A model generated the notes under the pieces. It worked only from the letters and a program-made list of their open reading frames with translations, was not told the DNA's origin and ran no database searches. Below, in pieces: positions 11,793 to 30,480 of a DNA stretch of 36,850 bases. Every line of letters begins with the position of its first letter. Position 1 is the stretch's first letter. The stretch spans positions 1 to 36,850 of the forward strand of contig JAHJGB010000004.1 of the NCBI GenBank assembly GCA_018824725.1, written 5' to 3'. This DNA is from Candidatus Omnitrophota bacterium (GTDB taxonomy: Bacteria > Omnitrophota > Gorgyraeia > Gorgyraeales > Gorgyraeaceae). Position numbers and translations under genes: made by a program.

Positions 11793-11831
11793 ATATGCTC
11801 CCTGGTACTATTTTGGATAGTTACATTATGG

Positions 11832-12096
11832 TTCTTTCCGTCTGGCAGGCCTACGAAAAGACGCCCCTCGCTTCGCTCGGGACTTGTCATAATCATGAGA
11901 ACTTGTCGAGGGGCGCTCAAACGCCCCAGCGATGCACCCTTCGCTCCGCGCCAATTCTCGTCCTTCGTCGCGGAGTTTACCCTGAACATAAGCGAAGGGC
12001 TCCTCAGGACCAGGTCGATTTTTAACGAAACGTCTGGGCTCACCATGCCTGCTCGAATCGGCGAGGCTTTTCTTTAGGCCCGCCAGCCGGAAATAA
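11832..12096. mobile_element. Non-coding MITE-like inverted-repeat element between the deacetylase and DUF362 genes
   Basis: Imperfect terminal inverted repeats: TTCTTTCCGTCTGGCAGGCCTA..AAAAG at the left versus the reverse complement TTATTTCCGGCTGGCGGGCCTA..AAAAG at the right (~19/22), with several internal perfect stems. Confidence 0.6.
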
Positions 12097-16844: not shown

Positions 16845-18210
16845 ATTCCCTTTGCCATCCGTAAATAATGCCTGCGAATATAAAAAATATGCTGTTTACA
16901 AATTCAAAATACCTCATCTCTATAAATACGGCATTCACCAGATACGCTGCCATGCAGCCCCAGAATATAATCACTATAGGTTTAGCTTCCGGATTATGGG
17001 CACGCAGATTTTTATACAACCTTATGCTGGCTATTAAAATTGAACTATATATAATCAAAATAAAGGTTATGCCCACAAGGCCCATTTCAGCCAAAATCCC
17101 GGCAAATGTATCGTGCTCTTTTAATTCAGTGTATTGAAAAGGCACCCCTCCCATATCAATATCAGCAAAATAATCAGGCGCATTATCTGAAAACTTTAAA
17201 AAACCAACGCCGAATATAGGATTGCTTATAAACATATTTACATACACCACATATAAATTCAACCTGTCGTAAACAGGGTCTTCATGCCGTATCCTTTCAT
17301 GCGCAAAAGCCATTGTGTTGTCGTCTAAAAAAGAAGGCGCTACGAGCATAGCTGTCATACAAAATAAGATGGCGGTTATAACAAATGCCTTCTGGCTTTG
17401 CTTGAAAGTAAATAAAGAGATTATCATGAAACTCAACATCGCCCCTAACCATGCAGCCCTTGTGTATGTAAAAAATATAGCCAGCGGCGTTATAGCTAAC
17501 AACAGAATCGCATATAATTTCCAGATTTTGGCCTTATTGCAATTGAACAAAAAATAGAACATAGATGAAAACGCAAAACCTAAGACAGTGCCGTTTACAG
17601 CTGCCTGGCAGAAAGGCCCCCTGGCCCTTCCAAAATGTATCCCAAAATCAGCATCAAGTATATACTTGGGAAAAACGAGCTTATTTATCTTCAAGTGCTC
17701 AAAGATTGCCGTAAAACTCAGATAAATCCCTACCAATACAATAAATTTTAAAAATCCTTCCCTTTTTGAGGTATTGTTGGTATAAACATTCTGACTTATA
17801 AAAAACATAAAAAACGGGACTATGTACCCTGTCAGAAGTTCCCCCATCTTAAGCTTGCCCCCTTCTTTAATGATAGCGCCTGTCCACATCATTGAGATAA
17901 CCGCTGCCAGACAGAATAGAAACATCGAATATTCAACCTTTGTAAAAGAAAAAATCTTGCGCCTTCTGGTCAAAATCTCGAAAATAAATATAATAACTAA
18001 AAATGTAAAAAGCATCCTGTCTAAAGACATGTCCGGCAATATTGAATCCATAACACTTATTTTCTGGTATTTAAATAAAAGCGCGGCCACAAGCCACATA
18101 TATATGCCATATGTAAAGTCCCTGCTGATTATAAAAAACAAGGTCAGCCCTACCACCAAGGCTGCTTCTATTAGTATAAGAATTTCCGATCCCATAATGA
18201 ACCATCCCAA
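16822..18210 (-). CDS. O-antigen ligase/polymerase (Wzy/WaaL) family protein; the ORF start is TTG, ATG at 18195 more likely
   Basis: Multi-TM; FTYTRAAWLGAMLSFMIISLF and NPIFGVGFLKFSD...HDTFAGILAEMGLVG Wzy_C-type motifs. Confidence 0.88.
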   Translation of the reverse strand: MGWFIMGSEILILIEAALVVGLTLFFIISRDFTYGIYMWLVAALLFKYQKISVMDSILPDMSLDRMLFTFLVIIFIFEILTRRRKIFSFTKVEYSMFLFCLAAVISMMWTGAIIKEGGKLKMGELLTGYIVPFFMFFISQNVYTNNTSKREGFLKFIVLVGIYLSFTAIFEHLKINKLVFPKYILDADFGIHFGRARGPFCQAAVNGTVLGFAFSSMFYFLFNCNKAKIWKLYAILLLAITPLAIFFTYTRAAWLGAMLSFMIISLFTFKQSQKAFVITAILFCMTAMLVAPSFLDDNTMAFAHERIRHEDPVYDRLNLYVVYVNMFISNPIFGVGFLKFSDNAPDYFADIDMGGVPFQYTELKEHDTFAGILAEMGLVGITFILIIYSSILIASIRLYKNLRAHNPEAKPIVIIFWGCMAAYLVNAVFIEMRYFEFVNSIFFIFAGIIYGWQREYGKKTAL

Positions 18211-18243
18211 CCTCGTAGGTTGCCGTAAGCAACCTACGAGGTT
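18209..18243. repeat. Perfect 15-bp stem hairpin (terminator-like on plus strand)
   Basis: AACCTCGTAGGTTGC-cgtaa-GCAACCTACGAGGTT, followed by a T-run only in the plus-strand sense. Confidence 0.8.
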
Positions 18244-18245
18244 TT

Positions 18246-19046
18246 TTACAAAACCTTTAACTTTATGCTGCCGATATACAGGTTTCTGTCTTCCATACCC
18301 CCTTTGAAATTCTCCGCCATATTATAAAATACCCTATAGCTCGATACCCTTTTTAACAAAAAAGACGCGTCAATCGCATTAAAGGCAAAAACCGCCAGTG
18401 TTATAAAAAACAGCGGTGATATAAAAATAATAAACCTTATCCTGCCTTTTTTAAAGATAACTGCCGCCATCAGAGACATTGAAATGGATAAGGCCAGCCA
18501 TCCGCCTCTGGACATTGAAAATAAGAATGCTATTGATAAAGCCATGCCTATTGAAACAGGTATCAAGAGTTCCAGGTATCCGGCAAAATGATTGTGATTT
18601 ATATATGTAGCAGAAAGAAACCCGGGATTAGCCCGCCACTCTTTAGGGATAATGCCAAAATATTGGCAAATTCCAAAAATAGCTACGCATGACCCTGTTA
18701 TTAAAAGCAAGTTCAATATCTTTTTTATATCTTTCTCTTCCATAATAAAATTTACAGTTATGTAAAAAATAAGCCCCAGGCTTATAAACCTGGCGATCTC
18801 TGCAATAGCTCCATAAATATATTTAGAATTAAAGCTGGACACAATCGCGGCTAAAAAGAATACCAATACAGCAATATCTACAGGCGTCCTTCTGAGCTTT
18901 ATCTCGTTATTTACAAAAATCCTGGTTATGCATATAAGCAATATAGATAATATAATAAGATATATGGAGGTAAATACACAGGCATTGACCGAACCTCTCA
19001 ATATCGGCGCAAATATAAGAATCAGGCTGAGCAAAATAGTTATCAT
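18246..19046 (-). CDS. O-antigen ligase/polymerase family protein, apparently truncated
   Basis: Multi-TM; YINHNHFAGYLELLIPVSIGMALS and SRGGWLALSISM motifs; ends right where the second conserved Wzy_C region would be expected. Confidence 0.75.
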   Translation of the reverse strand: MITILLSLILIFAPILRGSVNACVFTSIYLIILSILLICITRIFVNNEIKLRRTPVDIAVLVFFLAAIVSSFNSKYIYGAIAEIARFISLGLIFYITVNFIMEEKDIKKILNLLLITGSCVAIFGICQYFGIIPKEWRANPGFLSATYINHNHFAGYLELLIPVSIGMALSIAFLFSMSRGGWLALSISMSLMAAVIFKKGRIRFIIFISPLFFITLAVFAFNAIDASFLLKRVSSYRVFYNMAENFKGGMEDRNLYIGSIKLKVL

Positions 19047-26047: not shown

Positions 26048-27448
26048 CTAGTTGTTGTGCCTATTTTTAAAATAACTTAGCGCGCCGCCTACCACAAATA
26101 AAGAGCCCGTAACTAATATAAGATCTTCCTTATCTGCTATTTTTATGGCCTTACCTAAAGCCTCATCCGCATCTTTGATTTCTTGAATCCTTGGCCTTGA
26201 ACTTTGAAAATAATCTTTTAATTTCGATACGTTTTCAGCCCTGGGATTGTCTTTAGCCTCCGTGAGTATTATTATATCACCGGCTGCATCCAAAATACCG
26301 CTTACGCCTTTTATGTCCTTGTCGCTTGATATCCCAAATACGCATATCAGTTTTTTATATTTAAATATTCTCTTTATCGAGAAAATTAAAGCTGCCATGC
26401 TGGCAGGGTTTTGCGCCCCGTCTAAAATTATATTCGGGTTCTTCCGGATTATTTGCAATCTCCCTGGCCAGGTTGCTTTTTTTAATCCCTCTCTTATATT
26501 ATTTTCTTTTATATCAAATTTTTTCTTTATGGCTTCGATCATGCCTATGCTTATAGAGGCGTTTTCAATCTGATGAACGCCAATCAAATTTAATTCCAAA
26601 TTTTTATAATCATATCCCGGCGTTTCTAAATCAAAAACCTGGCCTAATTCACTCGAATGTAAAATAGAATATTTAATATCTTTTCCAATCTCATACAGTT
26701 CCGCATTTTTTTCTCTGCATGCTTTTCTTATAACATCCAGCGCTTCTTTTTCTTGCCTTGCGCTTACTACTTTTAACTTTTGCCTTTTGCCTTTTGACTT
26801 TTGACTTTTAATAATCCCTGTTTTTTCATACGCAATTTTTGCTAATGTATCGCCTAATTTATCAGTATGTTCCAGACTGATATTCGTCATGCCGCATACT
26901 AAAGGCGCTGCAACATTGGTCGCATCAAGCCTTCCGCCCATTCCTGTTTCTAAAACCGCTATATCAACCCGTTTTTGCTTAAAATACAAAAAAGCGCACG
27001 CTGTGAGTATTTCAAAAAAAGATACTTTGCCGAATTTTTCGTGTTCTCTGAACTTTTCAACTACAGGTTCTATTCCTTCTATAAGCTCATTAATTTCTTC
27101 TTCTCCTGCCATCCCCTCAAAATTATCTAACCTCCACTCTTCACCTTTCACCTCATTTAAATTATCTAATATTCTGATACGCTCCCTTGAATCCATAAGA
27201 TGCGGAGAAGTATAAAGCCCAACCTTATATCCGGCTTCCTTTAATATATAAGCTGTAATAGCACACGTAGATCCTTTGCCTTTAGAGCCTGCAACATGAA
27301 TAACATTCAAACCTTTATGCGGATTACCCAATTCATCTAAAAGAGCGATCATCCGTTCCAATCTGAACGAAGATGCATATTGATATCTCGGTATCTTTTC
27401 GAAATTTATAAAGGAATCAATGTATTCTATGGTGTCTTTATAATTCAT
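26048..27448 (-). CDS. folC: Bifunctional folylpolyglutamate/dihydrofolate synthase
   Basis: HVAGSKGKGSTCAITAYILKEAGYKVGLYTSPHL, LETGMGGRLDATN, SLEHTDKLGDTLAKIAYEKTGIIK, ILDGAQNPASM. Confidence 0.96.
   Translation of the reverse strand: MNYKDTIEYIDSFINFEKIPRYQYASSFRLERMIALLDELGNPHKGLNVIHVAGSKGKGSTCAITAYILKEAGYKVGLYTSPHLMDSRERIRILDNLNEVKGEEWRLDNFEGMAGEEEINELIEGIEPVVEKFREHEKFGKVSFFEILTACAFLYFKQKRVDIAVLETGMGGRLDATNVAAPLVCGMTNISLEHTDKLGDTLAKIAYEKTGIIKSQKSKGKRQKLKVVSARQEKEALDVIRKACREKNAELYEIGKDIKYSILHSSELGQVFDLETPGYDYKNLELNLIGVHQIENASISIGMIEAIKKKFDIKENNIREGLKKATWPGRLQIIRKNPNIILDGAQNPASMAALIFSIKRIFKYKKLICVFGISSDKDIKGVSGILDAAGDIIILTEAKDNPRAENVSKLKDYFQSSRPRIQEIKDADEALGKAIKIADKEDLILVTGSLFVVGGALSYFKNRHNN
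26776..26809. repeat. Heptanucleotide tandem array inside folC
   Basis: Same 34-nt sequence as in mnmE, with one further degenerate unit upstream (CTTTTAA). Confidence 0.95.
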
Positions 27449-27488
27449 ATATCAAAAGCCTGGGGTAGGTCTTCGAAAAGACGCTCGC

Positions 27489-27658
27489 CCTGCGGTAGTT
27501 GGGGTCTGAGGCGCATAAGAAAAATTTCGGCAAAAGTCCGCAAGGAATTACGGCGAAGTTTTTATACCGTCAAGACTACCTTCGGTATAAAAAATGAGCC
27601 GTAAGCCGTAGCGGACGGCGAAATTATTTCAGCGCCGAACGGCCCCAAGTGCCGCAGG
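27489..27658. repeat. 170-nt nested long hairpin between purH and folC
   Basis: Seven successive paired arms from CCTGCGG/CCGCAGG on the outside to TTTTTATACCG/CGGTATAAAAA on the inside. Confidence 0.85.
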
Positions 27659-27666
27659 CTTAATCA

Positions 27667-29265
27667 TCAATGTTTAAAATGCCTCGCGCCGGTAAGAACC
27701 ATGCTGATTCCGGCATCATCGCACGCTTTTATGACATGTTCGTCCCGTATAGAGCCGCCAGGCTGGATTATACTCGTTATCCCTGCCTTTTTGGCTTCCT
27801 CTATAGCATCCTCTTTAGGAAAGAACGCATCGCTTGCGCACGTAGAGCCTTTAGAAAGGCCCCTGGATTTCATTATAGCAATAACCATAGAATCAACCCT
27901 GGACATCTGGCCTGCGCCTACTCCAACTGTCCTGGTGCCCTGCGAAAGGACTATTGCATTTGACCTGACATGTTTTGCTATTTTCCATCCAAAAAGTAAA
28001 GACTCTATTTCCTCTTTGGCAGGTTTTTTCTTTGTAACCACCTTCAAATCTTTTTCTTCTATATTGAAAATATCTCTATCCTGTATTAAAAGCCCTCCGA
28101 CTACTTTTTTCAGGTCATAATCCTTCTCTATGCCTTTTAACCCGCCGACTTCTATCAATCTGAGATTCTTTTTGTCCATTAAGATATCCAGGGCATTTTT
28201 TTCGTATGAAGGGGCTATAATACACTCTGTAAAACCGGCGCTTATTATAGCTTCTGCTGTTTTAAAATCCACTTCTCTATTCAAGCCTACTATGCTTCCA
28301 AAAGCAGATATCTTGTCGCACTCCAGCGCATCTTTATAGGCATCTGCCAGGGTGTTTGCAGTAGCAGCGCCGCATGGATTAGTATGTTTTATCACGCTCG
28401 CTGCAGGTTCTTTAAATTCTTTTACTATTTCTAGCGCTGCATCCAGGTCTATGATATTATTAAACGAGAGCTCCTTGCCGTGGAGCTGCTTGGCATTACT
28501 TATGCCGACTACGTTACTATTCTTATCTTTATAAAAACTTGCTTTCTGATGAGGGTTTTCTCCGTACCTGAGGCTTTGCACTTTTTCAAATTTTAATTCC
28601 AGCGTATCCGGAAAATCTTTTTCACCCTCCACCCTTCCTGTCTCGAGCGAAGTCGAAGGAGACCCTTCGCCTTCATCCTGTCTTTTTAGATAGCTATAAA
28701 TCGCAGCATCATATTTTGAAGTCTTTTCAAAAACCTCAACACCGAGTTTAAAATGCATCTTATCGGAAATCGCCCCGTCATTTTCTTTCAATTCTTTTAT
28801 AATATCCTTGTATCTTTCAGGGTTGCATACCACCACTACATCTTTGGAATTTTTTGCAGCTGACCGTAACATGCTCGGCCCGCCTATATCTATATTCTCA
28901 ATAGCCTCTTCTAATTTCACCCCTGGCTTGGCAATTGTTTTTTCAAAAGGATAGAGATTCACCACCACCATATCTATCAGGCCTATGTCGTGTTTTTTGA
29001 CCTGCTCCATATGTTCTTTCTTGTCCCTTATGGCAAGAAGTCCGCCGTGAATCTTTGGATGCAGTGTTTTCACCCTGCCATCCAGCATCTCCGGAAACCC
29101 GGTATGATCTGACACAGATTTGACAGGTATGCCCATTTCCGCTATAAGTTTGGCAGTTCCGCCCGTAGATAACATTTCTACTTTAAACTCATTTAATACC
29201 TTTACCAATTCCTCCAAACCCGTCTTGTCTGAAACACTTATAAGCGCCCTACTTATTTTTCTCAC
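27667..29265 (-). CDS. purH: Bifunctional AICAR transformylase/IMP cyclohydrolase
   Basis: RALISVSDKTGLEELVK, STGGTAKLI, GFPEMLDGRVKTLHPKIHGGLL, RYGENPHQKASFY, KHTNPCGAA, SDAFFPKEDAIEEA, IQPGGSIRDEHVI. Confidence 0.97.
   Translation of the reverse strand: MRKISRALISVSDKTGLEELVKVLNEFKVEMLSTGGTAKLIAEMGIPVKSVSDHTGFPEMLDGRVKTLHPKIHGGLLAIRDKKEHMEQVKKHDIGLIDMVVVNLYPFEKTIAKPGVKLEEAIENIDIGGPSMLRSAAKNSKDVVVVCNPERYKDIIKELKENDGAISDKMHFKLGVEVFEKTSKYDAAIYSYLKRQDEGEGSPSTSLETGRVEGEKDFPDTLELKFEKVQSLRYGENPHQKASFYKDKNSNVVGISNAKQLHGKELSFNNIIDLDAALEIVKEFKEPAASVIKHTNPCGAATANTLADAYKDALECDKISAFGSIVGLNREVDFKTAEAIISAGFTECIIAPSYEKNALDILMDKKNLRLIEVGGLKGIEKDYDLKKVVGGLLIQDRDIFNIEEKDLKVVTKKKPAKEEIESLLFGWKIAKHVRSNAIVLSQGTRTVGVGAGQMSRVDSMVIAIMKSRGLSKGSTCASDAFFPKEDAIEEAKKAGITSIIQPGGSIRDEHVIKACDDAGISMVLTGARHFKH
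28638..28676. repeat. Repeat-like insertion within purH
   Basis: CTCGAGCGAAGTCGAAGGAGACCCTTCG core encoding GEGSPSTSLETGRVEGE in a variable loop; shares CGAGCGAAG with repeats at 11867-11881 and 30432-30446. Confidence 0.5.
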
Positions 29266-29287: not shown

Positions 29288-29322
29288 TGGAAGCCCGGCT
29301 CCCATAGGGAGTCGGGCTTCCA
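29288..29322. repeat. 16-bp near-perfect hairpin between the YchF-like gene and purH
   Basis: TGGAAGCCCGGCTCCC-ata-GGGAGTCGGGCTTCCA, one mismatch (G.U in the plus-sense RNA); no adjacent U-run. Confidence 0.8.
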
Positions 29323-29328
29323 TAAACT

Positions 29329-30336
29329 TCAAATATTAAATCTTATATTCAACATGTCTCCGTCTTTTACAACATACTCCTTGCCTTCTACTTTCAATAA
29401 TCCTGCCTCGCGCACCTTCTGCATATTGCCGGCGCATTTAATAAAATCTTCGTAATTCACAACCTCTGCCCTTATAAAACCCCTTTTTATATCGGAATGG
29501 ATTTTTCCTGCAGCCTCTATTACAGGCAAGCCTGACTCTAAATGCCAGCCCGTAGTGTCCTTGTCCCCCGCTGTAAAAAACGTAATAAGATTTAATTCCT
29601 TGGATATTAATTTTGCCATATTTTCCCTGAAATTATATCCGGAACCCATCTCTTTAGAAAACTGGTCCTGGTCCTCCGGATTCAACTCCAAAAGTTCAAG
29701 CTCTGTCTTTCCGAAAAATCTTATGCATCTCGCGCCGATTGAAGCGCAATATTCCTCAGCCGCTTTTATCTTATCCTCCTGTTTCCCCTCTTCAATATTT
29801 ATTACAACAATGATAGGCCTGAGGCTTATAAATGAAAAACCTGAAAAAACCTTCAGCTCATCCCTGGTTAACCCTATATTGCGTAAAAGTTTTGAATTTT
29901 CAAGAGACCCCTGGCATTTCTTTAACAGTTTCATCTCGCTCTCTATGTCAGTCTTAATCTTCATTCTTTCTTTCTCTATTTTATTGATCCTGTTCTGTAT
30001 GGCCTCAAGGTCGGCCAGTATAATGTCCATCATATAACCTTCCAGATCTTTTTTAGGGTCTTCGCTGAAAAATGCATTTGCTACGCATATAAACAAGTCT
30101 ATCTCGTGGAGTTTAGAATATTCCTTTCCGGTAAAACCTGCGCTTGAACTAATATCCAGAAAAGCTGTTTCAGGATATACCTTTTTCTTCGAGGAAAAAA
30201 TATCGCTGAGTTTTTTTATGCGGCTATCCATAAATTTAAACATGCCTATATCTCCTGTAATATTCGGAGACTGCAATAATACCTTAAATATGGACGTCTT
30301 GCCGGATTGCGCCGGGCCGATTATACCTATTTTCAT
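29329..30336 (-). CDS. Divergent YchF/OLA1-family GTPase
   Basis: N-terminal MKIGIIGPAQSGKTSIFKVLL; C-terminal TFFTAGDKDTTGWHLESGLPVIEAAGKIHSDIKRGFIRAEVVNYEDF...EGKEYVVKDGDMLNIRFNI (DUF933/TGS-like). Confidence 0.88.
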   Translation of the reverse strand: MKIGIIGPAQSGKTSIFKVLLQSPNITGDIGMFKFMDSRIKKLSDIFSSKKKVYPETAFLDISSSAGFTGKEYSKLHEIDLFICVANAFFSEDPKKDLEGYMMDIILADLEAIQNRINKIEKERMKIKTDIESEMKLLKKCQGSLENSKLLRNIGLTRDELKVFSGFSFISLRPIIVVINIEEGKQEDKIKAAEEYCASIGARCIRFFGKTELELLELNPEDQDQFSKEMGSGYNFRENMAKLISKELNLITFFTAGDKDTTGWHLESGLPVIEAAGKIHSDIKRGFIRAEVVNYEDFIKCAGNMQKVREAGLLKVEGKEYVVKDGDMLNIRFNI

Positions 30337-30356
30337 AACTAACTCTCTTTGTTTAT

Positions 30357-30480
30357 CGCAGAACCACGCGGAACATAACGCGGAAATACGCTGAAGCTAA
30401 CCGCTAACTTCCGCGTTTTTCTGCGCCTGTTCCGAGCGAAGCGAAGAACAGCTTCCGCGTAGTTCCGCGATTAGCATTTA
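30357..30480. repeat. Palindromic TTCCGCG-rich repeat, copy 1 (intergenic)
   Basis: 17-nt arms CGCAGAACCACGCGGAA (30357-30373) versus TTCCGCGTTTTTCTGCG (30409-30425), 15/17 paired; CTTCCGCGTAGTTCCGCG at 30452-30469. Confidence 0.8.

Follow-up and report, generated by a model that had tools for sequence, protein, structure and literature searches.

A palindromic repeat of Omnitrophota intergenic regions, mostly found within other hairpins and apparently undescribed so far

The window analysed here is a 36,850-nt stretch of DNA from an Omnitrophota bacterium (assembly GCA_018824725.1, contig JAHJGB010000004.1), in which the gap between a purH gene and a folC-type Mur ligase gene is filled by a long, stepped hairpin at positions 27489-27658 (Table 1). 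All the arms named in the original prediction are present at these positions and pair in the order given, and, as had been stated, a distance of 8 nt separates the hairpin from the purH stop codon on the opposite strand. The pairing is thus real but not complete within the proposed limits, as it reaches further out to an outermost stem. The hairpin consists of a conserved core, whose apex is an exchangeable module with at least four types in an alignment of 30 copies (A1), and a flanking stem specific to each copy. Beside it lies the remnant of one arm of an outer repeat, the partner of which is missing from this copy.

Table 1. Coordinates of the elements of the purH-folC hairpin and of the neighbouring genes in the window.
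Feature	Position	Strand	Basis
folC-type Mur ligase gene, other neighbour	26048-27448	-	Pfam
Outermost stem, left arm AAGCCTG	27456-27462	+	inverted repeat with CAGGCTT at 27655-27661
Outer-repeat arm remnant, GGTCTTCGAAAAGACGCTCG	27468-27488	+	matches outer arm of other own-genome copies
Copy-specific flanking stem, left arm	27489-27502	+	pairs with 27645-27658
Conserved core of element, GGTCTGAGGC ... GCCGAACGGCC	27503-27644	+	about 22 own-genome places, 30-copy alignment A1, distant families
Left segment conserved class-wide, GTCCGCAAGGAATTACGGCGAA	27536-27557	+	distant families, compensatory changes
Exchangeable apex module, GTTTTTATACCG...CGGTATAAAAA	27558-27594	+	alignment A1
Right segment conserved class-wide, GAGCCGTAAGCCGTAGCGGACGGC	27596-27619	+	pattern scan of 84,980 species
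Copy-specific flanking stem, right arm	27645-27658	+	pairs with 27489-27502
purH	27667-29265	-	Pfam AICARFT_IMPCHas and MGS

Folded as RNA, positions 27480-27670 yield -90.9 kcal/mol on the + strand; shuffled sequences average -52.9 (sd 4.1; z -9.35), and none of 200 shuffles is equally stable; the - strand reaches -77.3 kcal/mol (z -6.1). The hairpin lies directly after purH, and its outermost stem, AAGCCTG/CAGGCTT, is followed in the mRNA sense by a short T4 run, so that the earlier statement that no U-run follows holds for the core and is nearly, though not entirely, correct for the whole. Equivalent outermost stem bases with T5 tails occur in G001 and G004. Position and T-run would suit an ordinary intrinsic terminator, or a hairpin that arose in the gap by chance. 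However, the stem is 170 nt long with an A/T-rich centre, a short G+C stem followed by a T-run was not found (the single match of the scan falls inside the stem), the stability is far from that of shuffled sequences, and the structure is absent in relatives. Its repetition at about 20 places refutes a simple terminator or chance hairpin as the full explanation; we consider this account extremely improbable, in line with the original view that the structure is no simple terminator. The effect of the element at purH-folC is probably minor, consisting of some termination or transcript trimming.

The purH-folC hairpin is not a one-off structure, being one of about 20 dispersed copies. A DNA search of its own genome (1.66 Mb in 181 contigs) returned 30 matches at about 22 places, the best copies showing 94-97% identity across the whole core or the greater part of it; these and the other genome-wide counts derive from BLAST-type searches. 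Fifteen of 39 genomes searched match the element, all of them in the window's family. When 84,980 species were scanned for the pattern, exact core matches turned up in 82 stretches of DNA, exclusively from Omnitrophota assemblies. A search started from another core copy gives matches in 43 of the 292 genomes of the class, belonging to at least 12 families; at most two candidates were scored per genome in this search, which makes the per-genome counts lower bounds. The copies fetched from distant families fold alike. According to a simple ORF caller, 41 copies lie between tandem, 10 between divergent and 4 between convergent genes, while 10 are inside called ORFs and 21 at locus edges. A c-di-GMP-I riboswitch is located near the copies of G017 (L245, 638-734; 70 bits) and G018 (L246, 182-278; 68.6 bits). 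This palindromic repeat of Omnitrophota intergenes, situated mostly within other hairpins, is apparently undescribed so far: literature on nested palindromes or on palindromes in Omnitrophota contained nothing matching, incidental mentions aside.

Related genomes hold the purH-folC locus in empty, partial and filled form, and the element is therefore an insertion that is polymorphic between related species. The gap is without a hairpin in G003 (6 nt), G007 (20 nt) and G006 (32 nt), and it holds a simple, unrelated hairpin in G011 (48 nt) and G012 (60 nt). In G004, the gap of 171 nt is occupied by an outer palindromic repeat, which has a short apex and lacks the core. The core is present in the gaps of 196-259 nt of G000, G001, G008, G009 and G010; the orthologous copy in G001 shares its flanking stem with the window copy and differs from it in the apex. 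Ten other insertion sites of the window's genome, compared with relatives, follow the same pattern. At the L009 site, G001 (a short stretch aside) and G006 lack an insertion, as do G002 and G004 at L028, and G005 and G006 at L023; at the L019 site, G001 shows no more than a short hairpin, GCCAGCCC...GGGACTGGC, and G000 the whole nest. The L017, L028 and L014 sites are occupied by unrelated palindromes in other species. No clean target-site duplication is readable at the orthologous sites because these are too strongly diverged. The structure is not conserved at purH-folC; the proposed effect on mRNA processing or stability may be a by-product.

The copies are nested within other palindromes. 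In 55 of the 58 copies with both boundaries present, the left and right flanks complement each other with scores beyond the 99th percentile of shuffles, and the mean score is 14.9 for flanks of the same copy versus 7.4 for flanks taken from different copies. Since the flanks differ between copies but are self-complementary, each copy lies within a larger palindrome. Several flanking stems resemble local terminators (TTTTTGGCTTAGGC...GCCTAAGCCAAAAA, TTTTTTACCAGC...GCTGGTAAAAAA), and others are the arms of a second, outer repeat. Nesting also occurs inside the element. The L018 copy reads TTCTTT[ATGGAAGCCCG...CGGGCTTCCAT]TGTATATAA where L021 has the uninserted TTCTTTTGTATATAA, the additional palindrome occupying a side-hairpin loop of the element. 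This palindrome is itself a repeat: it stands in the window upstream of purH as the perfect palindrome GGAAGCCCGGCTCCCATAGGGAGTCGGGCTTCC (29297-29337), with 72 BLAST matches, counting both orientations, spread over dozens of genomic places. The apex of L044 is the palindrome CCCCGTTCC...GGAACGGGG, which in L137 and L140 adjoins the outer repeat; L193, L044 and L137 are all examples of such nests. G002 has the palindrome GTTAATTCACAAA...TTTGTGAATTAAC at two sites, by itself at the first and inside the outer repeat at the second.

Further palindromic sequences are scattered over the window. Positions 30350-30480 contain another nested palindromic repeat (CGCGGAACATAACGCGGAAATACGC...), present at about 30 places in the genome, and a similar sequence is found at the L017 site of G003. 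A copy of the outer repeat, CTGGCAGGCCTACGAAAAGACGC...GGCTTTTCTTTAGGCCCGCCAG, at 11830-12095 has a complex filling devoid of the core element, and a terminator-like perfect hairpin, AACCTCGTAGGTTGC...GCAACCTACGAGGTTTTTT, is located at 18210-18246.

The flanking stem might itself belong to the element, both arms being rewritten symmetrically, in which case no target hairpin would have existed beforehand. At the boundary, a weak consensus, CAGGCTGGGG, is common to the flanking stems, and the outer motifs GTCCTG/CAGGAC recur in other, distant families; part of what appears to be the target stem may therefore be a hypervariable portion of the element. At the L013 site, moreover, the element occurs in three species with stems that are related yet symmetrically different. 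However, L013, L014 and L018 combine near-identical cores with unrelated stems, the terminator-like stems have A/T tails, and the same sites hold unrelated palindromes in other species. An origin of the flanking stem within the element is thus possible, though we regard it as doubtful.

Pairing is maintained to a high degree between copies. In alignment A1, 96.0% of the cells pair, and two-sided changes affect 121 cells; shuffles yield 39 such cells and slid controls no more than 16. Likewise, 96.1% of the cells pair among 17 sequences spanning families, with 50 two-sided cells versus 16 in shuffles. The covariation called for in the original prediction is therefore present alongside homologous copies, the joint lack of which had been named as grounds for abandoning it. 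Paired switches lead from A-U to G-C, from C-G to G-C and from U-A to C-G, with intermediates almost absent. Mismatches of the two kinds are equally rare in A1, with 21 G-U and 18 A-C when one boundary pair, mostly G-U, is left out; the 17-sequence set has 8 G-U, five of them at one pair, and 3 A-C. G-U counts are similar whichever strand is folded. Because selection on a single RNA strand should tolerate G-U far more than A-C, the missing preference suggests that the arms are kept alike at the level of DNA and points to maintenance of the palindrome as DNA, rather than to selection on one RNA strand.

The same alignments bear on the possibility that the element is a multicopy, conserved structured RNA (an ncRNA or mRNA element), the pairing of which would be selected at the RNA level and whose loops UGA/GAA and AAGG/ACCGTA would bind a protein. 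Sequence and internal loops are conserved over at least 12 families with covarying stems, purine-rich internal loops are conserved on one strand, as a structured RNA would likewise show, and folding is more favourable on the + strand than on the - strand in 52 of the 58 copies. However, G-U is not favoured over A-C, the two strands behave alike in this respect, and sister species lack the element at the orthologous purH-folC locus. A promoter search at the element gave no match, and no Rfam 15 family exceeded its gathering score; at loose thresholds the sole hit, to a microRNA precursor model (E 0.35; 13.5 bits, the cut-off being 297), amounts to noise. In tandem gene pairs (L001-L166), the better-folding strand is antisense to the genes more often than not (29 versus 12), a weak excess among copies that are related. 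A structured RNA is thus improbable, and the suggestion of an unrecognised ncRNA is not substantiated. That of a cruciform-type mobile repeat is supported, since the copies are dispersed and nested in other palindromes and orthologous sites are empty.

These observations are probably best explained by a non-autonomous, hairpin-nesting mobile palindromic element of Omnitrophota that inserts between genes. Its preferred target would be the apex of a hairpin already in place, either an intrinsic-terminator-like stem or another palindromic repeat, and its own loops could receive further palindromes. Because insertion would take place in mid-stem, the host hairpin would remain a hairpin and suffer little damage. 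Complementarity of the two arms would be upheld in the DNA itself, probably through intrastrand correction or copying of the extruded palindrome. Judging from its anatomy, the element may move as a folded single strand or as a cruciform, with the aid of a trans-acting enzyme encoded elsewhere. In a bolder form, put forward here only tentatively, the element would represent an ancient, class-wide family of self-nesting mobile hairpins that target the apices of hairpins, hold their two arms identical through intrastrand correction of the DNA and move in a way so far undescribed in bacteria.

Transposases of the Y1 (HUH) type are a candidate class of mobiliser. Genes for them are present in 34 of the 38 relatives, irrespective of whether the element is there. 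The element is absent from the flanks of all four Y1 genes of the window's genome, three of which carry other inverted terminal repeats (AGGGACGGTTCT, GAGACGTCTACC and TGTACCGTTTGC), and from the Y1 loci fetched from relatives. A Y1/RAYT protein as element-specific mobiliser was therefore rejected, given the lack of co-occurrence with the element and of copies flanking the Y1 loci examined. The Y1 gene of L252 (G000:C17) has terminal inverted repeats, AGGGACGGTTCTAGA, at 495-506 and 1112-1126; G001 and G004 have this motif at their L014 site, in GGGACGGTTCTC palindromes. Reverse transcriptase (RVT_1, PF00078) was found in G004 alone among 19 genomes and not in the window's genome (93% complete), and IS110 was found in a minority of the genomes searched and not in the window's genome; both were discarded as mobilisers because of their absence there. 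In a non-exhaustive search for an autonomous long version between the halves of the element, the split matches held other palindromes, not genes.

Small palindromic repeats are common in bacteria, and the route by which most of them spread is still unsettled. The little-studied phylum Omnitrophota has a family of nesting hairpins, probably mobile, in which insertion order and target choice can be read directly because related genomes hold empty, partial and nested sites. The near-absence of one-sided stem changes makes the upkeep of arm identity a testable question. In genome annotation, such repeats should not be taken for regulatory RNAs or terminators, and, since several copies lie at contig ends, they may break assemblies.

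Several known systems resemble the element in part. The double-hairpin elements of fungal mitochondria are likewise small and mobile, and they insert into one another or close by; compared by description, they are much shorter and belong to a different type of genome. The palindromic elements of Rickettsia, hairpins of about 100-150 bp noted for insertion inside genes, are similar in size by description, and their spreading route is likewise obscure, but the Omnitrophota element is mainly intergenic. Bacterial MITEs (Correia, ERIC/RU, Nezha) are non-coding inverted-repeat elements of 100-200 bp that are polymorphic between species. The element shares with them inverted terminal repeats, the lack of coding capacity, multiple copies and orthologous sites polymorphic for insertion; unlike MITEs, it is palindromic to its centre and nests in hairpin apices, and a non-exhaustive search found no autonomous partner with shared ends.

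REP/REPIN and RAYT/TIRYT palindromes are, like the element, intergenic, multicopy and often downstream of genes (PMC3733652). In the TIRYT arrangement, a Y1 transposase is flanked by terminal inverted repeats (Di Nocera et al. 2013, PMC3733652), and the window's genome has Y1 transposases with such repeats, for example AGGGACGGTTCT. However, a REP/REPIN palindrome measures 20-40 bp, whereas the core of the element has about 140 nt and the nested form more than 300 nt. REPs bear an unpaired GTAG or CGTC tag at the foot; the feet of the element are GGTC/GGCC, and GTAG occurs in an internal loop only. REP/REPIN copies flank a Y1 (RAYT) gene, and those of the element flank none in the loci examined. 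Thus, although these features set it apart from REPs, the element is MITE/REP-like in its behaviour.
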